Shown piece after piece: positions 4,067-9,244 of a DNA stretch of 21,949 nt. The notes below the pieces were generated by a model. That model was given only the letters and a program-made list of their open reading frames with translations, had not been told where the DNA came from and did not search any database. The position numbers and the translations under genes are program-made. Numbering within the stretch: the first letter of the stretch is position 1; every line of letters starts with the position of its first letter. The stretch comes from a virus. Where the stretch lies: positions 1-21,949 of the IMG/VR virus record IMGVR_UViG_3300036857_000174; one strand, 5' to 3'.

Positions 4067-4833
4067 TTCGCGGCCTCGAGCCACCGTGGCGCGGTGAGCG
4101 CCTCGCTCACGTACTCCTCGCGTGGTGCCTCGGTGAAGCGTGCGACCACCGCCGCGTGCAAGAACACGCGGAACGTGCGCTCGGTCACGTTCACCGGCAC
4201 GAGCTCGTAACCATCGGCGCGGAGCCACACCACCGCGCACGCATCGATCTCGGGCATCTCGTGCTCGAGCCCGTCGCCATCGAGGTAGGTCTCCGCGTTC
4301 GCGTACGCGGCGAGCTGTAACGCCGCCTCGGGATACACACCACTCGCGCTCGTTTTCCAATCGAGGAGCCACGTGCGCCCATCGCCGAGCTCGGCGATGA
4401 GATCGGCGGTGCCCGCGTACCGCCACTCGCGGTTGAGCACCGGCACCTCCACGAGCCGCTCTTGCACGCGCCAATCACGGATGAATGCGAGGTAGGCATC
4501 TACGTGGCCGAGGAGCTCATCGGCGATCTCGAGCTCTTCGCCGGCGGCGAGCCGCACCGCGAGCGCGTGGATCTCGGTACCGCGTGCGGCGGCCGCACCC
4601 GAGACCTCGAAACGGGCCGAGGTGAGCCGCCGCATTTTCTCGGCGGTGCCCACCTCGGCGAGCTCGGCCCAATGGTCACACGCGTAGCCGGCGGTGGTGC
4701 GTGCCACCCAATCCTCGAGGTGCTTGGGCACACCTTTGCCGAGGATCGTGGTCACGCCGGGCACGAGCTCGCCATCGAGGTAGTAGGAGTGGCCGCGGCC
4801 GCGGTTCACGCGGCCGGTGCGCGGCGGGCTCAC
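4063..4833 (-). CDS. RecB/Cas4-type PD-(D/E)XK exonuclease, 256 aa
   Basis: The product resembles the RecB-like nuclease module found in phage exonucleases that work with RecT proteins. Visible residues are GTEIHA (H89), YAGTADLIAEL (D144), WLLDWKTS (D158 and K160) and QLAAYA (Q173). This H...D...DxK...QxxxY order is typical of the RecB/Cas4 group. The C-terminus has no four-Cys iron-sulfur cluster, so it is not a canonical Cas4. Expected activity is resection of double-strand ends to load the RecT-like protein. It starts at 4833 in an overlap with the HTH gene. The protein lacks any helicase domain. Confidence 0.85.
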   Translation of the reverse strand: MSPPRTGRVNRGRGHSYYLDGELVPGVTTILGKGVPKHLEDWVARTTAGYACDHWAELAEVGTAEKMRRLTSARFEVSGAAAARGTEIHALAVRLAAGEELEIADELLGHVDAYLAFIRDWRVQERLVEVPVLNREWRYAGTADLIAELGDGRTWLLDWKTSASGVYPEAALQLAAYANAETYLDGDGLEHEMPEIDACAVVWLRADGYELVPVNVTERTFRVFLHAAVVARFTEAPREEYVSEALTAPRWLEAAK

Positions 4834-5102
4834 GAGAGCCCCAAGAACCGCTCGAGCTCCGCGTGGGTGATGCGCAATTGTGTGCCCACGCGGCGGGCTC
4901 GGAGCTCACCCTCATTGATGAGCCGCCGCACCGTTTTATCGGACACCTTGAGCTCTCGAGCGGCCGCGGGAATGGTGTAGACGAGCGGCGGCGGCGGTGG
5001 CGCGGCGGCGCCCCTCTTGGTGGTGGCCTTGCGGCCGGCGGTGCGCTTGGTGATGCGCTTGGCGGGCTTCGCGGCGGTGCGCCGCGCGGGCTTGGCGGGC
5101 AT
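4830..5102 (-). CDS. Excisionase-type HTH protein with histone-H1-like tail, 90 aa
   Basis: This is the first gene of the leftward operon. Residues 41-90 form a MerR/excisionase-type winged helix-turn-helix (YTIPAAARELKVSDKTVRRLINEGEL...). Residues 1-32 are a Lys/Arg/Ala/Pro tail with AAKPAKR-like repeats similar to bacterial histone-H1-like tails. A run of five prolines (36-40) acts as hinge. The protein could be the excisionase, a Cro-like regulator of the divergent promoters, or both. The start at 5102 lies just downstream of a good promoter, so the mRNA is probably leaderless. The basic tail may add non-specific DNA binding or bending. Confidence 0.8.
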   Translation of the reverse strand: MPAKPARRTAAKPAKRITKRTAGRKATTKRGAAAPPPPPLVYTIPAAARELKVSDKTVRRLINEGELRARRVGTQLRITHAELERFLGLS

Positions 5103-5109
5103 GTGGCCG

Positions 5110-5139
5110 AACGTAGAACGTTGCCCAACGCGGAGTCAA
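5110..5139 (-). promoter_or_regulatory. Leftward early promoter
   Basis: Read on the minus strand, TTGACT (plus positions 5134-5139) and TACGTT (5110-5115) are separated by 18 bases, a good sigma70-type match. The expected transcription start falls at or next to the ATG at 5102, so the message should be leaderless. The imperfect palindrome CGTTGCCCAACG (5119-5130) lies in the spacer. The perfect palindrome CGTTGCGCAACG (5141-5152) lies directly upstream of the -35. This is a classic layout for repression. Confidence 0.7.
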
Positions 5140-5152
5140 CCGTTGCGCAACG
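5119..5152. promoter_or_regulatory. Paired palindromic operators
   Basis: CGTTGCCCAACG (5119-5130) and CGTTGCGCAACG (5141-5152) start 22 bases apart, two helical turns. This puts two bound dimers on the same face of the DNA. The second is a perfect 12-base palindrome that recurs exactly at 7288-7299. They flank and split the -35 element of the leftward promoter. The HTH repressor encoded at 5199-5585 is the most likely ligand. Confidence 0.6.
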
Positions 5153-5160
5153 CGCGGGCC

Positions 5161-5203
5161 TTGGCCATGCGTGGCCAACCGTGGTCAACTACAGTCACGT
5201 GAC
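5161..5203. promoter_or_regulatory. Second operator cluster and repressor promoter region
   Basis: TTGGCCA-TGCG-TGGCCAA (5161-5178) is an inverted repeat with 7-base arms. It overlaps TGGCCAACCGTGGTCA (5172-5187), a segment found with one change at 7044-7059 upstream of the integrase. GTCACGTGAC (5194-5203) is a further palindrome covering the repressor start. TACAGT (5190-5195) is a plausible -10 for rightward transcription of the repressor, again leaving almost no leader. No good -35 is seen at the right distance. Confidence 0.5.
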
Positions 5204-5585
5204 GGTGGTGTCATTTAGTGAAGAGCTCGCACGAGCCCGCCAAAAGCGTGGCCTCTCACAATCGGAGCTCGCGGCCGCGTGCGCGATTGGAAAGTCTCAT
5301 CTCTCGCGCATTGAGTCTGACAAGGTGATGCCGTCACCCGCGTTACTCGAGCGGCTCATCGAAGAGTTAGAGCCACCGAATAGCACCGCAACGCCTTGGC
5401 GCAAATGCGTGGCCAATCATCGAGCGCGTGCCTCGGTGTTGCGTTTGGTTGAGGTTGCCGAGCGTAACGAGGCGCTCGCCAAACGCGTGGATGCGCTCTC
5501 GCGCAAGGTTGAAGAACTTAGCGCGATGGTGGAGAGCCACGAGCACGATGATCGTGGCTCGCGTAGTGCTCGGTCATCTCGGTAA
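5199..5585 (+). CDS. HTH (XRE family) immunity repressor, about 128 aa
   Basis: This is the only gene convincingly on the plus strand. Residues 5-57 form an XRE/Cro-CI helix-turn-helix (SFSEELARARQKRGLSQSEL, then IGKSHLSRIES). The C-terminal half holds a coiled coil (about 85-118, with regularly spaced Leu/Val) that probably drives dimer or tetramer formation. No peptidase-type LexA/CI catalytic domain is present, so RecA-stimulated self-cleavage is unlikely. Possible GTG starts are 5199, 5205 and 5208; none has a ribosome-binding site, consistent with a leaderless message. Its codon use is less GC-rich at third positions than its neighbours (for example TTA, GAA, AAT). It should repress the leftward operon and maintain lysogeny. 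Confidence 0.85.
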   Translation: MTVVSFSEELARARQKRGLSQSELAAACAIGKSHLSRIESDKVMPSPALLERLIEELEPPNSTATPWRKCVANHRARASVLRLVEVAERNEALAKRVDALSRKVEELSAMVESHEHDDRGSRSARSSR

Positions 5586-5881: not shown

Positions 5882-7024
5882 TCACCGGCCGAGCTCGCGC
5901 ACCCTCGCGCCGACCGCGTCCGCGGCGCGTTGGTCGGCGGCCGCGCGCCCGTGCGCGTATCGGTTGGTGGTGGACATATCGCGATGGCCGAGCCGATCAC
6001 GCGCGGTGGCCGAGTCTGTTGCGGCGAGCACCTCGGTTGCGTGGTAGTGGCGGAGATCGTGGAACCGCACACCCTTGACGCCACTCGCCGCGCGAGCACG
6101 CCGCCATGCCCACGTAACGCGGTCGGGCCTCCATGGCTCCGAGCCGGCGGGATGGTCGGAGAACACATACGCGAGCGGCTCGAGCATCACACCGGCCTCG
6201 AGCGCGTAGTCCGCGGCCCATGCCCAATGTGCGCGCAAGAGCTCCACGGTGCCGGCATCGAGGTGGATCTCTCGCACCGCGTGCGTTTTCGTGCTCTTGA
6301 CGATCACCTCGCGCGTGGTCGGCACCACATCGATGGCGCGCTCGATGCGCAGCACGCCGGCCTCGAGCTCGAGATCCGACCATCGGAGCCCGCATAGCTC
6401 GCCGCGCCGCATACCCGTGGCGGCGGTGAGGAGCGCGGCCACGCGGAACGCGGGCTCATCGATCGCGCCGAGCACGCGGCGGATCTCATCGTGGGTGGCA
6501 TCGGTGATGCGCGGCGGTTGCCACGGGATCGTGGTGCGCTTGGTCGCGCGTGCGGGGTTGCGGTCGATCCATTCCCACCGCACCGCGGTGGTGAGGAGCG
6601 CCGAGATCACCGCGTGCACTTGGTGGACGGTGCCGGGCGCGCGGCCGGCCTCGAGCTCGCGATAGAGGCGCTCGAGCTCGCCGGCGGTGATCTTGGCCAC
6701 CGGCACCTCCGCGAGCCGTGGGAGCACGTACCGCTCGAGGTTCGCGAGGTAGCCGCGGCGGGTGGAGTCCGCGAGGCTCGGCGCGACCACCTCGCGCCAT
6801 TCGGTCACGAGCTGCCCGAACGTTTTGCGGCGGTTGAGATTGGCGAGCTCATCGAACCCCGCCACGAGCTCGGCGATGCGGCGATCCGCGTCACGCGCGG
6901 AACCCTTGAACGCCTCGGAGTAGGTGGCGCGCGTGCCGTCGGGCCGGCGGCCGAGATTGATGCGGAGCCGCCACCGGCGGCCTCCATCGGGTGCGGTGCC
7001 TCGCGGCTCTTTGTAGCCTCTCAT
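5882..7024 (-). CDS. int: Tyrosine integrase, 380 aa
   Basis: This is a phage tyrosine recombinase that joins attP to a host tRNA-Leu gene. Domains run in order: N-terminal arm-binding region (about 1-60, Arg-rich with GRRPDGTR), SAM-like core-binding domain (65-160) and catalytic domain (170-370). Catalytic residues are visible: R206 in TGMRRGEL, K246 in KSTKT, H322 and R325 in FHDLRHYHAT, H347 in LGHRDM and nucleophile Y356 in TTNRYAHG. The ATG at 7024 is preceded by AAAGGGAAAG as a ribosome-binding site. A longer frame upstream runs through attP and is not supported. Length is typical of actinophage integrases. Its promoter region contains operator-like and attP elements. Confidence 0.95.
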   Translation of the reverse strand: MRGYKEPRGTAPDGGRRWRLRINLGRRPDGTRATYSEAFKGSARDADRRIAELVAGFDELANLNRRKTFGQLVTEWREVVAPSLADSTRRGYLANLERYVLPRLAEVPVAKITAGELERLYRELEAGRAPGTVHQVHAVISALLTTAVRWEWIDRNPARATKRTTIPWQPPRITDATHDEIRRVLGAIDEPAFRVAALLTAATGMRRGELCGLRWSDLELEAGVLRIERAIDVVPTTREVIVKSTKTHAVREIHLDAGTVELLRAHWAWAADYALEAGVMLEPLAYVFSDHPAGSEPWRPDRVTWAWRRARAASGVKGVRFHDLRHYHATEVLAATDSATARDRLGHRDMSTTNRYAHGRAAADQRAADAVGARVRELGR

Positions 7025-7043
7025 CGTGCTTTCCCTTTGCTCT

Positions 7044-7059
7044 TGGTCAACCGTGGTCA
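7044..7059. promoter_or_regulatory. Operator-like element upstream of int
   Basis: TGGTCAACCGTGGTCA differs at one base from TGGCCAACCGTGGTCA at 5172-5187 in the repressor control region. It sits 20 bases before the integrase start, where binding of the repressor would block integrase expression. Conservation between two control regions of a small genome suggests a shared ligand. Confidence 0.55.
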
Positions 7060-7081
7060 CGGGTACCCAATACTGTACCCG
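7060..7081. repeat. Left arm-type repeat of attP
   Basis: CGGGTAC (7060-7066) and GTACCCG (7075-7081) form an inverted repeat with an 8-base spacer. GGTACCCAAT within it (7062-7071) is repeated exactly at 7314-7323 on the other side of the core. This is the expected position for integrase arm-type sites. TACAGT read on the minus strand (7071-7076) may also be the -10 of the int promoter. Confidence 0.55.
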
Positions 7082-7146
7082 TCTCCATGGTGGCACGTTG
7101 CCTCGTGGTTGGGCAATGGCCTCTGAGCAGGGAAAACATCGAGCTA

Positions 7147-7184
7147 GCCCGAGTGGTGGAATGGCAGACACGACGGACTCAAAA
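7147..7184 (+). other. attP core: 5' half of a tRNA-Leu(CAA) gene
   Basis: The stretch folds as the first half of a leucine tRNA. It has acceptor strand GCCCGAG (7147-7153), TG, D-stem GTG (7156-7158) pairing with CAC (7169-7171), anticodon-stem strand ACGGA (7173-7177) and a seven-base loop CTCAAAA (7178-7184) with anticodon CAA. Beyond 7185 the second half of the stem, T-arm and acceptor complement are missing. It is therefore a tRNA fragment, not a gene. The shared identity with the host should end at or just after the anticodon loop, the strand-exchange region for many integrases. Host identity is inferred. Confidence 0.75.
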
Positions 7185-7202
7185 CGCGCTCACGGGTGCG
7201 CC

Positions 7203-7233
7203 ACCGTTGCCCACCGTTGCCCAACCGTCACCC
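7203..7233. repeat. Tandem ACCGTTGCCC repeats in attP right arm
   Basis: ACCGTTGCCC occurs at 7203-7212 and 7213-7222 head to tail, followed by a degenerate ACCGTCACCC at 7224-7233. The 10-11 base period places each copy on the same face of the helix. CGTTGCCC also occurs in the operator at 5119. They may be arm-type sites for integrase or sites for the excisionase-type protein. Confidence 0.5.
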
Positions 7234-7269
7234 GTTTGCCCTGCTCACGGGCCGTTTTCGTGGCAACCG

Positions 7270-7299
7270 TTGGCCATGCGTGGCGAGCGTTGCGCAACG
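7270..7299. promoter_or_regulatory. Copy of immunity-region elements in attP right arm
   Basis: TTGGCCATGCGTGGC (7270-7284) is identical over 15 bases to 5161-5175. CGTTGCGCAACG (7288-7299) is identical to 5141-5152. The two elements occur in opposite order in the two places. This points to binding of the same protein, not to a simple duplication of one segment. Confidence 0.6.
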
Positions 7300-7313
7300 T
7301 TGGGCACGTGCTC

Positions 7314-7334
7314 GGTACCCAATCCGGTACCCAA
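7314..7334. repeat. Right arm-type direct repeats of attP
   Basis: GGTACCCAA at 7314-7322 and 7326-7334 are direct repeats 12 bases apart. They match the left-arm element at 7062-7070. Together with the left copy they bracket the tRNA-like core, as arm-type sites of a tyrosine integrase do. Confidence 0.55.
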
Positions 7335-7447
7335 GATCGGCGGTGCCGGCACGACGGACTCCGCGTCCCCCGTGCGCCGCGAGGGTACGGTAACCACGTG
7401 CCCGAGCGCTCATAGCGCTTGGCGGCGCATTGCTCGAGGCACGAGGT

Positions 7448-7489
7448 GAGCCGGCCGGCGCCTCACCCTTTGCGGGTGTCGGCCGGCTC
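7448..7489 (-). terminator. Hairpin at the end of the late operon
   Basis: GAGCCGGCCG (7448-7457) pairs with CGGCCGGCTC (7480-7489), and CACCC (7464-7468) pairs with GGGTG (7474-7478) inside. The stop codon of the last late gene (7488-7490) lies in the hairpin. No T-tract follows on the minus strand, so it is either a GC-rich terminator without U-tract, as often seen in actinobacteria, or an mRNA 3'-end stabiliser. It would insulate attP and int from late transcription. Confidence 0.65.
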
Positions 7490-7940
7490 AACCCTTGAGG
7501 CACGCGAGGAGCGTGGCGGTGGCCTCGGGGTTGCGTTGGTGTACGTCGATCTCGGTGGCGGTGTAGCCGGGCGGGCACGTGGGCCCCGGCGCGCCCGTGG
7601 CGCCCGGCGGGCCCGGCACCGTGGAGTCTCGGCCCGGCGCGCCGGCGGGCCCCGTGGCGCCTCTCGGGCCCGGCACCGTGGAGTCTCGGCCCGGCGCGCC
7701 GGCGGCGCCTCGTGGGCCCGGCACCGTGGAGTCTCGGCCCGGCGCGCCTTGTGGGCCCGGCACGGTGGAGTCCTTGCCGGCGGGCCCGGCGGGCCCCGGT
7801 GGGCCGGCCACCGGCACGGTGACGGTAACGGGTGTCGGCTCGCTCGAGCTCGGGCTCGAGGTGGTGGCGGCGGCGGTGCCGAGCGCGGCGGTGGCGGCGA
7901 TACACACCACCGAGGTGATGAGGTAGCCGGTGCTCTTCAC
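7488..7940 (-). CDS. Collagen-like secreted protein, 150 aa
   Basis: This is the last gene of the late operon. A hydrophobic N-terminus (about residues 6-26) looks like a signal peptide or membrane anchor, with a possible cleavage site after the Ala-rich stretch. The middle (about 45-119) consists of Gly-X-Y triplets. They are broken four times by the same seven-residue unit, G(K/R)DSTVP, so each collagen tract is only a few triplets long. The C-terminal 30 residues carry two Cys and may form a trimer-nucleating or binding cap. The start is GTG 7940, overlapping the upstream stop as GTGA. Collagen-like phage proteins are usually virion fibres; here secretion within a lysis cassette is the odd feature. 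Role unknown. Confidence 0.82.
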   Translation of the reverse strand: MKSTGYLITSVVCIAATAALGTAAATTSSPSSSEPTPVTVTVPVAGPPGPAGPAGKDSTVPGPQGAPGRDSTVPGPRGAAGAPGRDSTVPGPRGATGPAGAPGRDSTVPGPPGATGAPGPTCPPGYTATEIDVHQRNPEATATLLACLKG

Positions 7941-8152
7941 GCGCCCTCGGCCCGTCTCATGCGCTCGGTGTGGAGCTGATCGGCCACCGCCTCGGCCTCG
8001 GTGCGCGCGGCCTTGAGCCGCTCCTCACATTGCTCCTCGCCACGAGCCTCGGCCTCGCCGCGTGCCTTGACCACCGCGGCCCATGCGGTGAGCACCGCGG
8101 CCACGCCGGTGAGCGTGGCGCCCACCGCGAGCTCGAGCTCGTGCGCATCCAC
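7937..8152 (-). CDS. Membrane protein with coiled coil (spanin/holin-like), 71 aa
   Basis: A GTG at 8152 lies one base after the preceding stop. Residues 8-30 form one hydrophobic span. The rest is a charged coiled coil (KARGEAEARGEEQCEERLKA and on) ending in Arg-rich sequence. The membrane-span-plus-coiled-coil form recalls i-spanin-like or accessory lysis proteins placed after endolysins in actinophages. No lipoprotein partner is obvious. It could equally be a small holin partner. Confidence 0.62.
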   Translation of the reverse strand: MDAHELELAVGATLTGVAAVLTAWAAVVKARGEAEARGEEQCEERLKAARTEAEAVADQLHTERMRRAEGA

Positions 8153-8153
8153 C

Positions 8154-8435
8154 TCACGGGCCCGGTGGCGGCTCGGATGGTCGGGTGGCGGCGAGCTCCT
8201 CGAGCGGTACGCGCGGCACCGTTTCGGGCCGCACGAAGAGCTCGGAGACCGCGATATAGGCGGCGAGCGCCACGCCGGTGATGATCGCGCCACCTTGGGC
8301 GGAGACCACCTCGGCGCCGAGGAGCACCGTTACCACCGCTTGCACGAGCCCGTAGAGCACCCACGTCCACCGCACCGGATCGCGGGTGAGCCGGCCGCCA
8401 CCGATCGGTGCGGGTGGCCGCGCGGGCGCGCTCAT
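8154..8435 (-). CDS. Holin-like membrane protein, 93 aa
   Basis: The ATG at 8435 overlaps the endolysin stop as ATGA. A short Pro/Arg-rich N-terminus is followed by two hydrophobic segments (about residues 22-43 and 47-66). A polar Pro-rich tail follows. Two spans and a position directly after an endolysin are typical of class II holins of actinophages. It would make membrane lesions that release the amidase or collapse the membrane potential. The assignment rests on topology and position, since holins share little sequence. Confidence 0.68.
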   Translation of the reverse strand: MSAPARPPAPIGGGRLTRDPVRWTWVLYGLVQAVVTVLLGAEVVSAQGGAIITGVALAAYIAVSELFVRPETVPRVPLEELAATRPSEPPPGP

Positions 8436-9244
8436 GTGGTCGGATCGTCCGCGGATTGGCCGTGGGTCGCGCACGCGTGCATCACGTCCCACCCGCGTGC
8501 GTCAACCGAGACCACGTTCATTCCCGGCACCTTGAGCAACGCGTCATAGCCCTCTTGGTCGATGTTGCACCAGTAGCCGGGTCCGACGAGCGCGGCACCG
8601 TTTGGTCCAAAAGCGATATACATTCCGAGCTCCACAAGTGAGGTGCCGGCGGCCTTGCCGCCGAGCGCGTTGGTTACGAGCGGTTGCCAATCGGGTGGGC
8701 AATTGCCGCCGCATGTGTCGATCTTGCGTGCGGTGAGCACGCGGTGCTCGGTGACGTAGCCGGCATGTGGGAGCGCGAGGCACTCGAGCGCCACCGCGGC
8801 GGCGATGGCCAAGCCATCTTGGAGCGCTTGGCTCCATGGTTCGCCGGTGCCGCTGTTTTGCGCAGCGATCGAGAAAAGCCGATCGTTGGCGCTTGTGTCA
8901 TCGCGCAATCCGCGTGCGCTCGCGCTCACGCAACCCGCGCGGCCCTCGAGCGCCTCGGTGAGCGCCACGCTCGAGATCTTGCCCGAGCTGTTGGCTTTCT
9001 CTCGCGCCAAGATCCACGCGCACCCGTATCGGTCGATGAGCACGTTGTAGAGCGGGCTGTCGCTCGAGCCGTGGTGACAGTACGCGGCATCGGCCTCGGG
9101 TGAGCTCGAGCTCGAGCTCGCGGTGTGATGCATCACCACCGCGCGGTGGTCGGCGGAGCCACCGTGGCTCTCCCACCCATCGAACACATTGACCACGAGC
9201 CCGCGTTGCGCGAGCCGTGTCGGGTAATCGGTGGGCACGAGCAT
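8432..9244 (-). CDS. Endolysin, N-acetylmuramoyl-L-alanine amidase, 270 aa
   Basis: An Amidase_2/PGRP-type zinc amidase that cuts the amide bond between MurNAc and the stem peptide. The N-terminal His pair in VVMHHTAS (39-40) and EHR (H167) supply zinc ligands. D176 or C178 in the RKIDTCG segment supplies the third. The C-terminal ~75 residues after the catalytic domain are not recognised and may bind the wall. A run of six Ser (43-48) directly follows the His motif, encoded by alternating AGC and TCG codons that make a palindromic tract. The ATG at 9244 overlaps the upstream TAA by one base. No signal sequence, so holin-dependent export is expected. Confidence 0.9.
   Translation of the reverse strand: MLVPTDYPTRLAQRGLVVNVFDGWESHGGSADHRAVVMHHTASSSSSSPEADAAYCHHGSSDSPLYNVLIDRYGCAWILAREKANSSGKISSVALTEALEGRAGCVSASARGLRDDTSANDRLFSIAAQNSGTGEPWSQALQDGLAIAAAVALECLALPHAGYVTEHRVLTARKIDTCGGNCPPDWQPLVTNALGGKAAGTSLVELGMYIAFGPNGAALVGPGYWCNIDQEGYDALLKVPGMNVVSVDARGWDVMHACATHGQSADDPTT

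Follow-up and report, generated by a model that had tools for sequence, protein, structure and literature searches.

When an element integrates into a tRNA gene, the gene usually stays downstream of its own promoter. The locus described in this work raises the question of whether a phage that carries the 5' half of a host tRNA gene in its attachment site (attP) would also have to provide the promoter of the tRNA that is rebuilt upon integration. At sites of this kind, transcription must come from the element unless the host does without the tRNA, and promoter donation and a possible phage control of a host tRNA are thus directly testable. The locus was identified in the IMG/VR record IMGVR_UViG_3300036857_000174, where positions 1-21,949 were analysed (21,949 nt, hereafter the window). 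The record has no completeness estimate and may be a fragment. We estimate a probability of about 0.8 that the locus serves a temperate actinobacterial phage as its attP, that a lambda-type tyrosine integrase uses the anticodon loop of host tRNA-Leu(CAA), and that the tRNA is rebuilt behind phage DNA.

The identity block of the attP is located at 7147-7184 on the + strand (GCCCGAGTGGTGGAATGGCAGACACGACGGACTCAAAA) and represents a tRNA-Leu(CAA) 5' half that starts at G1 and runs through the anticodon loop. In an exact scan of 84,980 species genomes, three contigs had a tRNA-Leu(CAA) whose opening 38 nt were identical to the block (38/38). The tRNA-Leu(CAA) genes with the exact half were read by ARAGORN at 1756-1839 (L002), 359-442 (L003), and 3915-3833 (L004, reverse). 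A 38-nt exact match is far above chance expectation. The identity opens at G1, where the preceding bases are CGAGCTA in the phage and CGACCAC or GTGCCCG in the hosts. It closes at the last base of the anticodon loop, after which the phage continues with cgcgctcac and the hosts continue with tccgttgcc or tccgttggg. The match to three tRNA genes bears out the claim of the first-pass annotation that the attP core carries the 5' half of tRNA-Leu(CAA). That annotation would have been contradicted by an attB identity reaching the 3' end of the tRNA or by prophages of this type integrated elsewhere. The identity stops at the anticodon loop, and no such prophage was encountered. The loop CTCAAAA (7178-7184, + strand) contains the last 7 bases common to attB and is presumed to be the 7-bp strand-exchange (overlap) region. 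The crossover would lie within this loop, as the displaced fragments of integrated relatives start at the anticodon arm.

The two junctions that integration would produce were assembled in silico and read with ARAGORN. The junction between phage left and host right gave a complete tRNA-Leu(CAA) with L002, L004, L246, L250, L251, and L253. The junction between host left and phage right, assembled with L002 only, gave no tRNA. The 5' part thus comes from the element, and the in silico junction with the element restores the tRNA, as expected of a 5'-fragment integrator. The phage DNA that had been predicted upstream of the rebuilt tRNA is likewise present in these junctions. We propose that a lambda-type tyrosine integrase recombines within the anticodon loop of host tRNA-Leu(CAA) and that the attP would bear the 5' half of the tRNA gene on the int side. 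After integration, the host promoter would stay joined to a useless 5' half, and the int-side junction would rebuild a complete tRNA, with its 5' half from the phage and its 3' half from the host. Integration in the loop would therefore leave the rebuilt tRNA with phage DNA upstream, namely about 120 bp followed by the divergent int gene. Transcription of the tRNA would have to start in phage DNA, most simply within 7025-7146. We infer integration in a cell, the position of the crossover, and promoter activity.

The gene that adjoins the core encodes a tyrosine integrase of 380 aa (5882-7024, - strand; start codon taken at MRGYKEP) with three Pfam domains (PF00589, E 8.5e-22; PF22022; PF14659). 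The core is located 122 bp from the integrase start, and int is divergent and reads away from the core. The site exhibits the features of an anticodon-loop attP, which are the adjoining tyrosine integrase gene and a core that is common to a host tRNA gene and has one boundary at the anticodon loop. Repeats of the ACCGTTGCCCA type flank the core on both sides and are putative arm-type integrase sites, some of which are perhaps regulator sites. The putative left-arm site GCCATTGCCCA (7110-7120, - strand) is a copy of ACCGTTGCCCA with 2 mismatches in the opposite orientation. The putative right arm has two adjacent perfect copies of ACCGTTGCCCA (7203-7223, + strand), which are the only two perfect matches in the window. 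A third putative right-arm copy, ACCGTTGGCCA (7266-7276, + strand), was identified by repeat search. Further to the right, 12 nt of the tRNA half are repeated at 7350-7361, which is 181 bp from the core. The flanks of this copy are 15/17 alike to 7164-7180, and the copy is perhaps the trace of an earlier att event.

The Pfam search of the window also identified a capsid protein, an amidase, an HNH protein, an XRE-type regulator, and an HTH_17 excisionase-like protein. The XRE-type HTH regulator (5199-5585, + strand; PF01381, E 3e-11; start uncertain) is a candidate immunity repressor. The HTH_17 protein is encoded at 4830-5102 on the - strand (PF12728, E 1e-13). ARAGORN read no complete tRNA in the 21,949-nt window, and the Rfam scan of the attP region gave a chance match only. 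Beside the attP (7488-7940), a small collagen-like protein is predicted, which has a Gly-Pro-rich repeat and a hydrophobic N-terminal stretch.

The host is probably actinobacterial, because the terminase of the window is closest to actinophage terminases and the 5' half with at most 3 mismatches is present, always within a complete gene, in 18 of the 58 genomes of the order to which two exact hosts belong. Two of the three contigs with the exact match are from this one actinobacterial order. The third contig is labelled Gemmatimonadota, so the half alone does not identify the host. The search of actinobacterial genomes that the first-pass annotation had proposed yielded the matching tRNA-Leu(CAA) but no prophage of this phage joined there. 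The searches yielded no lysogen of this phage or of any close relative, and the best integrase match had 41% identity. Among 395 genomes of the host class, none had an orphan 5' half of this stem type. A broader pattern gave 75 sites in 396 genomes of the phylum, and those examined were complete tRNAs (30/30). Positions 6000-8600 of the phage had no nucleotide match in 50,697 phage records, and the exact 38-mer was present in no viral contig except this record. The integrase relatives in viral contigs were at most 40% identical, with nearly all below 31%.

The integrase relatives that were compared are from Actinobacteria and exhibit about 26-41% identity. The adjoining tRNA turns its 3' end to int in 35/37 cases, and this phage would on that account be the flipped form. 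The larger group of these relatives (20/35) has the identity block between the loop and the int start. The window has the block in the same place with the tRNA reversed. The distance between int and tRNA is 73-131 nt in most upstream cases and 122 nt in the window. One integrated relative (G377) has a displaced copy of tRNA positions 31-75 about 5 kb away. One genome from the order of the exact hosts (G427) has an island of about 7.5 kb at tRNA-Leu(CAA) in the ordinary arrangement, with a displaced copy of positions 30-84. Both displaced fragments indicate that related integrases exchange at the anticodon loop. In the flipped form of the usual 3'-half arrangement, the identity block would stay on the int side and the tRNA would be reversed. 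The flipped orientation is probably due to the nearly palindromic anticodon stem-loop. Since the stem-loop is an inverted repeat around 7 bp, a switch of orientation would need just another overlap sequence. We infer this switch from the geometry, and it offers a simple account of this phage, in which the integrase-side identity block is the same and the tRNA is flipped.

If the tRNA is made, the geometry demands a promoter in 7025-7146, yet none is visible. Read-through from int cannot help because int reads leftwards. The first-pass annotation had named a weak candidate (7109-7139, + strand; TTGGGC/TGGGCA ... AAACAT), which is the best upstream pair. The hexamers TTGGGC (7109-7114) and AAACAT (7134-7139) are indeed present, but they fail the sigma-70 scan and are no better than chance as promoter evidence. 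The sigma-70 score of the window was no better than those of shuffles (p = 0.28). The -10 candidate of the window was equalled by 36% of window segments under a host-derived -10 matrix. The sigma-70 scan, the shuffles, and the host-derived -10 matrix gave no recognisable promoter in the upstream phage DNA. The tRNA genes of the actinobacterial group exhibit a -10-like element with the consensus GGTACCATG. AAACAT is located 7 nt before G1 and resembles the CAACAT of several host genes.

The sigma-70 matrix was also applied to 16 upstream regions, which consist of 15 distinct sites and one complete tRNA in L202. Upstream of the tRNA start, the matrix gave a modest excess (Fisher p = 0.02), and the downstream control had no excess (p = 0.64). 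The excess came mainly from L168 (TTGACT-18-TACAAT), L094 (TTGGCA-19-GATAAT), and P-SSP7 (TTGTTA-16-TATAAT), which have good sigma-70-like promoter candidates. In P-SSP7 (L239), TATAAT with TTGTTA 16 bp upstream is located 19 nt before the tRNA half, just upstream of a 35-nt match (1601-1635). Integration of P-SSP7 would place this TATAAT box before the rebuilt tRNA-Leu(UAA), although the gene served by this promoter may be that of the phage RNA polymerase.

Elements that resemble operators were identified by sequence search on both sides of the core. The inverted-repeat element GGTACCCAATACTGTACCC is located in the interval between int and the core (7062-7080, + strand), and a second copy, GGTACCCAATCCGGTACCC, is located to the right of the core (7314-7332, + strand). 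These two operator-like copies (GGTACCCAATnCnGTACCC) thus lie one on either side of the attP, with none elsewhere in the window and 0/100 in shuffles. The palindrome AGCGTTGCGCAACGTT (7286-7301, + strand) resembles another (5139-5154) that lies upstream of the XRE-type regulator. The interval between HTH_17 and XRE (5100-5212) has CGTTGCGCAACG, CAACCGTGGTCA, and TTGGCCATGCGTGGC in common with the attP region. The count of words shared between the regulator control region and the attP (p about 0.04) is weakly significant, as the genome is repetitive. The intergenic region between the repressor and HTH_17 has a 15-nt word in common with the attP, and 26 of 2000 random pairs reach 15 nt. Since such sharing is unexceptional in a repetitive genome, common regulator sites are only suggested.

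It is possible that phage regulators act on the expression of the tRNA. It is doubtful that tRNA-Leu(CAA) in the lysogen is transcribed from the phage DNA between int and the core and that a phage regulator sets its level and thereby the translation of UUG-rich genes. The new part, if true, would be that a host tRNA is expressed under regulation from phage DNA. The attP sites with a tRNA-Leu 5' half would then represent a recurrent phage takeover of tRNA promoters.

The attP could be as described above and the tRNA could still be dispensable. In that case, no phage promoter would be needed because tRNA-Leu(UAA), which reads UUG by wobble, could cover this codon, and the rebuilt gene would perhaps be silent or barely expressed. 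This account fits with the lack of a convincing promoter upstream. It also fits with the dispensability of tRNA-Leu(CAA) in E. coli (leuX). However, all 38 nt to G1 are kept exactly, as they also are in other groups, and this exceeds what a 7-bp overlap and the core sites need. P-SSP7 and HTVC109P moreover use CTTAAAA (UAA) halves, and a tRNA-Leu(UAA) target should be essential. We consider a dispensable tRNA unlikely. A complete tRNA-Leu elsewhere in the phage could also cover the loss, and the half would then serve recombination only. Such tRNA-dependent lysogeny is known in mycobacteriophages (PMC10865867), and the tRNA could lie outside the 21.9-kb record if the record is a fragment. The 21.9-kb window has no tRNA, although the record may be incomplete. 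The tRNA-dependent phages have about 10 bp in common with attB and the tRNA is not rebuilt (PMC10865867), whereas the window has 38 bp in common and the tRNA is rebuilt. Both situations are alike in that the phage affects the host-tRNA supply of the lysogen. They differ in that tRNA-dependent lysogeny makes up for a broken host gene with a complete phage tRNA under its own promoter, whereas a hybrid gene would be rebuilt by this phage (PMC10865867). We therefore give this explanation hardly any weight.

The half could instead be a relic of imprecise excision, with the working attP elsewhere. The recurrence of the 12-nt word CACGACGGACTC at 7350-7361 suggests that the tRNA sequence was maybe copied more than once. 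A relic is nevertheless very improbable, as the half is full-length and undecayed, paired repeats surround it, and its distance from int is typical (122 nt). The locus might even be an ordinary 3'-type site in another host, with a coincidental resemblance to a 5' half. With the host assigned as probably actinobacterial, there would be room for such a site. Against it, the 38-nt exact match has the D-arm and anticodon features and ends at G1 and the loop, and the three exact tRNA matches refute the coincidence in practice. We give this explanation practically no chance.

The findings in this work favour an attP that rebuilds tRNA-Leu(CAA) behind phage DNA; integration sites of this kind are uncommon but have been described before. 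The arrangement is not singular, given the precedents of the T7-like marine cyanophages S-TIP37 and P-SSP7, of 159/3919 Islander islands, and of archaeal pTN3. The phages P-SSP7, S-TIP37, HTVC109P, and HTVC041P, the last two of which are pelagiphages, have the 5' half downstream of int and use leucine tRNAs with other anticodons. The halves of P-SSP7 and HTVC109P read CTTAAAA (UAA). The attP of P-SSP7 and S-TIP37 is the 39-bp first half of tRNA-Leu, and integration at such a site was shown experimentally, with stable lysogens not found (PMC8776855). The window is similar to both phages in having a tRNA-Leu 5' half to the anticodon loop, a tyrosine integrase beside it, and phage DNA upstream of the rebuilt tRNA. 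In P-SSP7 and S-TIP37, however, int is upstream of the half and co-directional with it, whereas int of the window is divergent. The targets also differ (UAA and CAG leucine tRNAs versus CAA in the window), and the int proteins are distantly related.

Islander lists 159 islands with 5' fragments versus 3760 with 3' fragments (PMC4383910). The 5'-fragment islands are like the window in that the 5' fragment is displaced and the rebuilt tRNA has element DNA upstream. The islands are known in integrated form, whereas the window is known from the phage form alone. Archaeal elements of the pTN3/TKV4 type use a tRNA-Leu 5' half as att, with 41 bp shared (PMC5495485, PMC8371274). The tRNA-Leu of pTN3-like elements is rebuilt away from its original promoter, and its expression is attributed to the integrase promoter; this situation is termed 'seldomly encountered in bacteria' (PMC8371274, PMC5495485). 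The att of pTN3/TKV4 lies within the integrase gene, which is split on integration, whereas the core of the window lies outside the divergent int. The Cluster J mycobacteriophages at tRNA-Leu are 3'-half anticodon-loop phages (PMC3706429). They have a tyrosine integrase, a core boundary at the anticodon loop, and paired arm-type sites (putative in the window). Cluster J carries the 3' half and leaves the host promoter in place, whereas the window carries the 5' half.

A pattern search of viral contigs identified orphan tRNA-Leu(CAA) 5' halves with the same cut base beside integrases in at least about 10 further viral groups; the pattern was built to pick out 5' halves, and a 5'/3' ratio is therefore not derivable from it. 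The groups among the matches listed are L032, L094, L095, L127, L156, L168, L175, L176, L198, and L202, together with near-copies. The integrase is located on the 5'-half side in all listed groups except L032. The integrases of the listed groups are mostly distant from one another and from the integrase of the window. This suggests that leucine-tRNA 5'-half sites are commoner among uncultivated phages than isolated literature cases imply.

Several other loci were considered as candidates. L325 (G403) was set aside as an ambiguous case of an integrated 5'-type relative, with the displaced 3' half on the other side of the tRNA and the contig ending inside int. L205, L166, and L152 have a complete tRNA-Leu(CAA) just downstream of the integrase or divergent from it, and they were rejected with no second half in the records. 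In L340 (G403:C70; 9383-9420, 14016-14091, and 14237-15313), a tRNA-Lys(TTT) lies between a displaced 3' half and a divergent integrase that is 125 nt from the tRNA 5' end; perhaps one tRNA is used from both ends. In L040 and L044 (position 103-120), a tRNA-Leu(CAA) 5' half runs through the anticodon stem (TCCGTTGGC) and then diverges. This half is located near the contig end and is a possible prophage edge of the 5' type.
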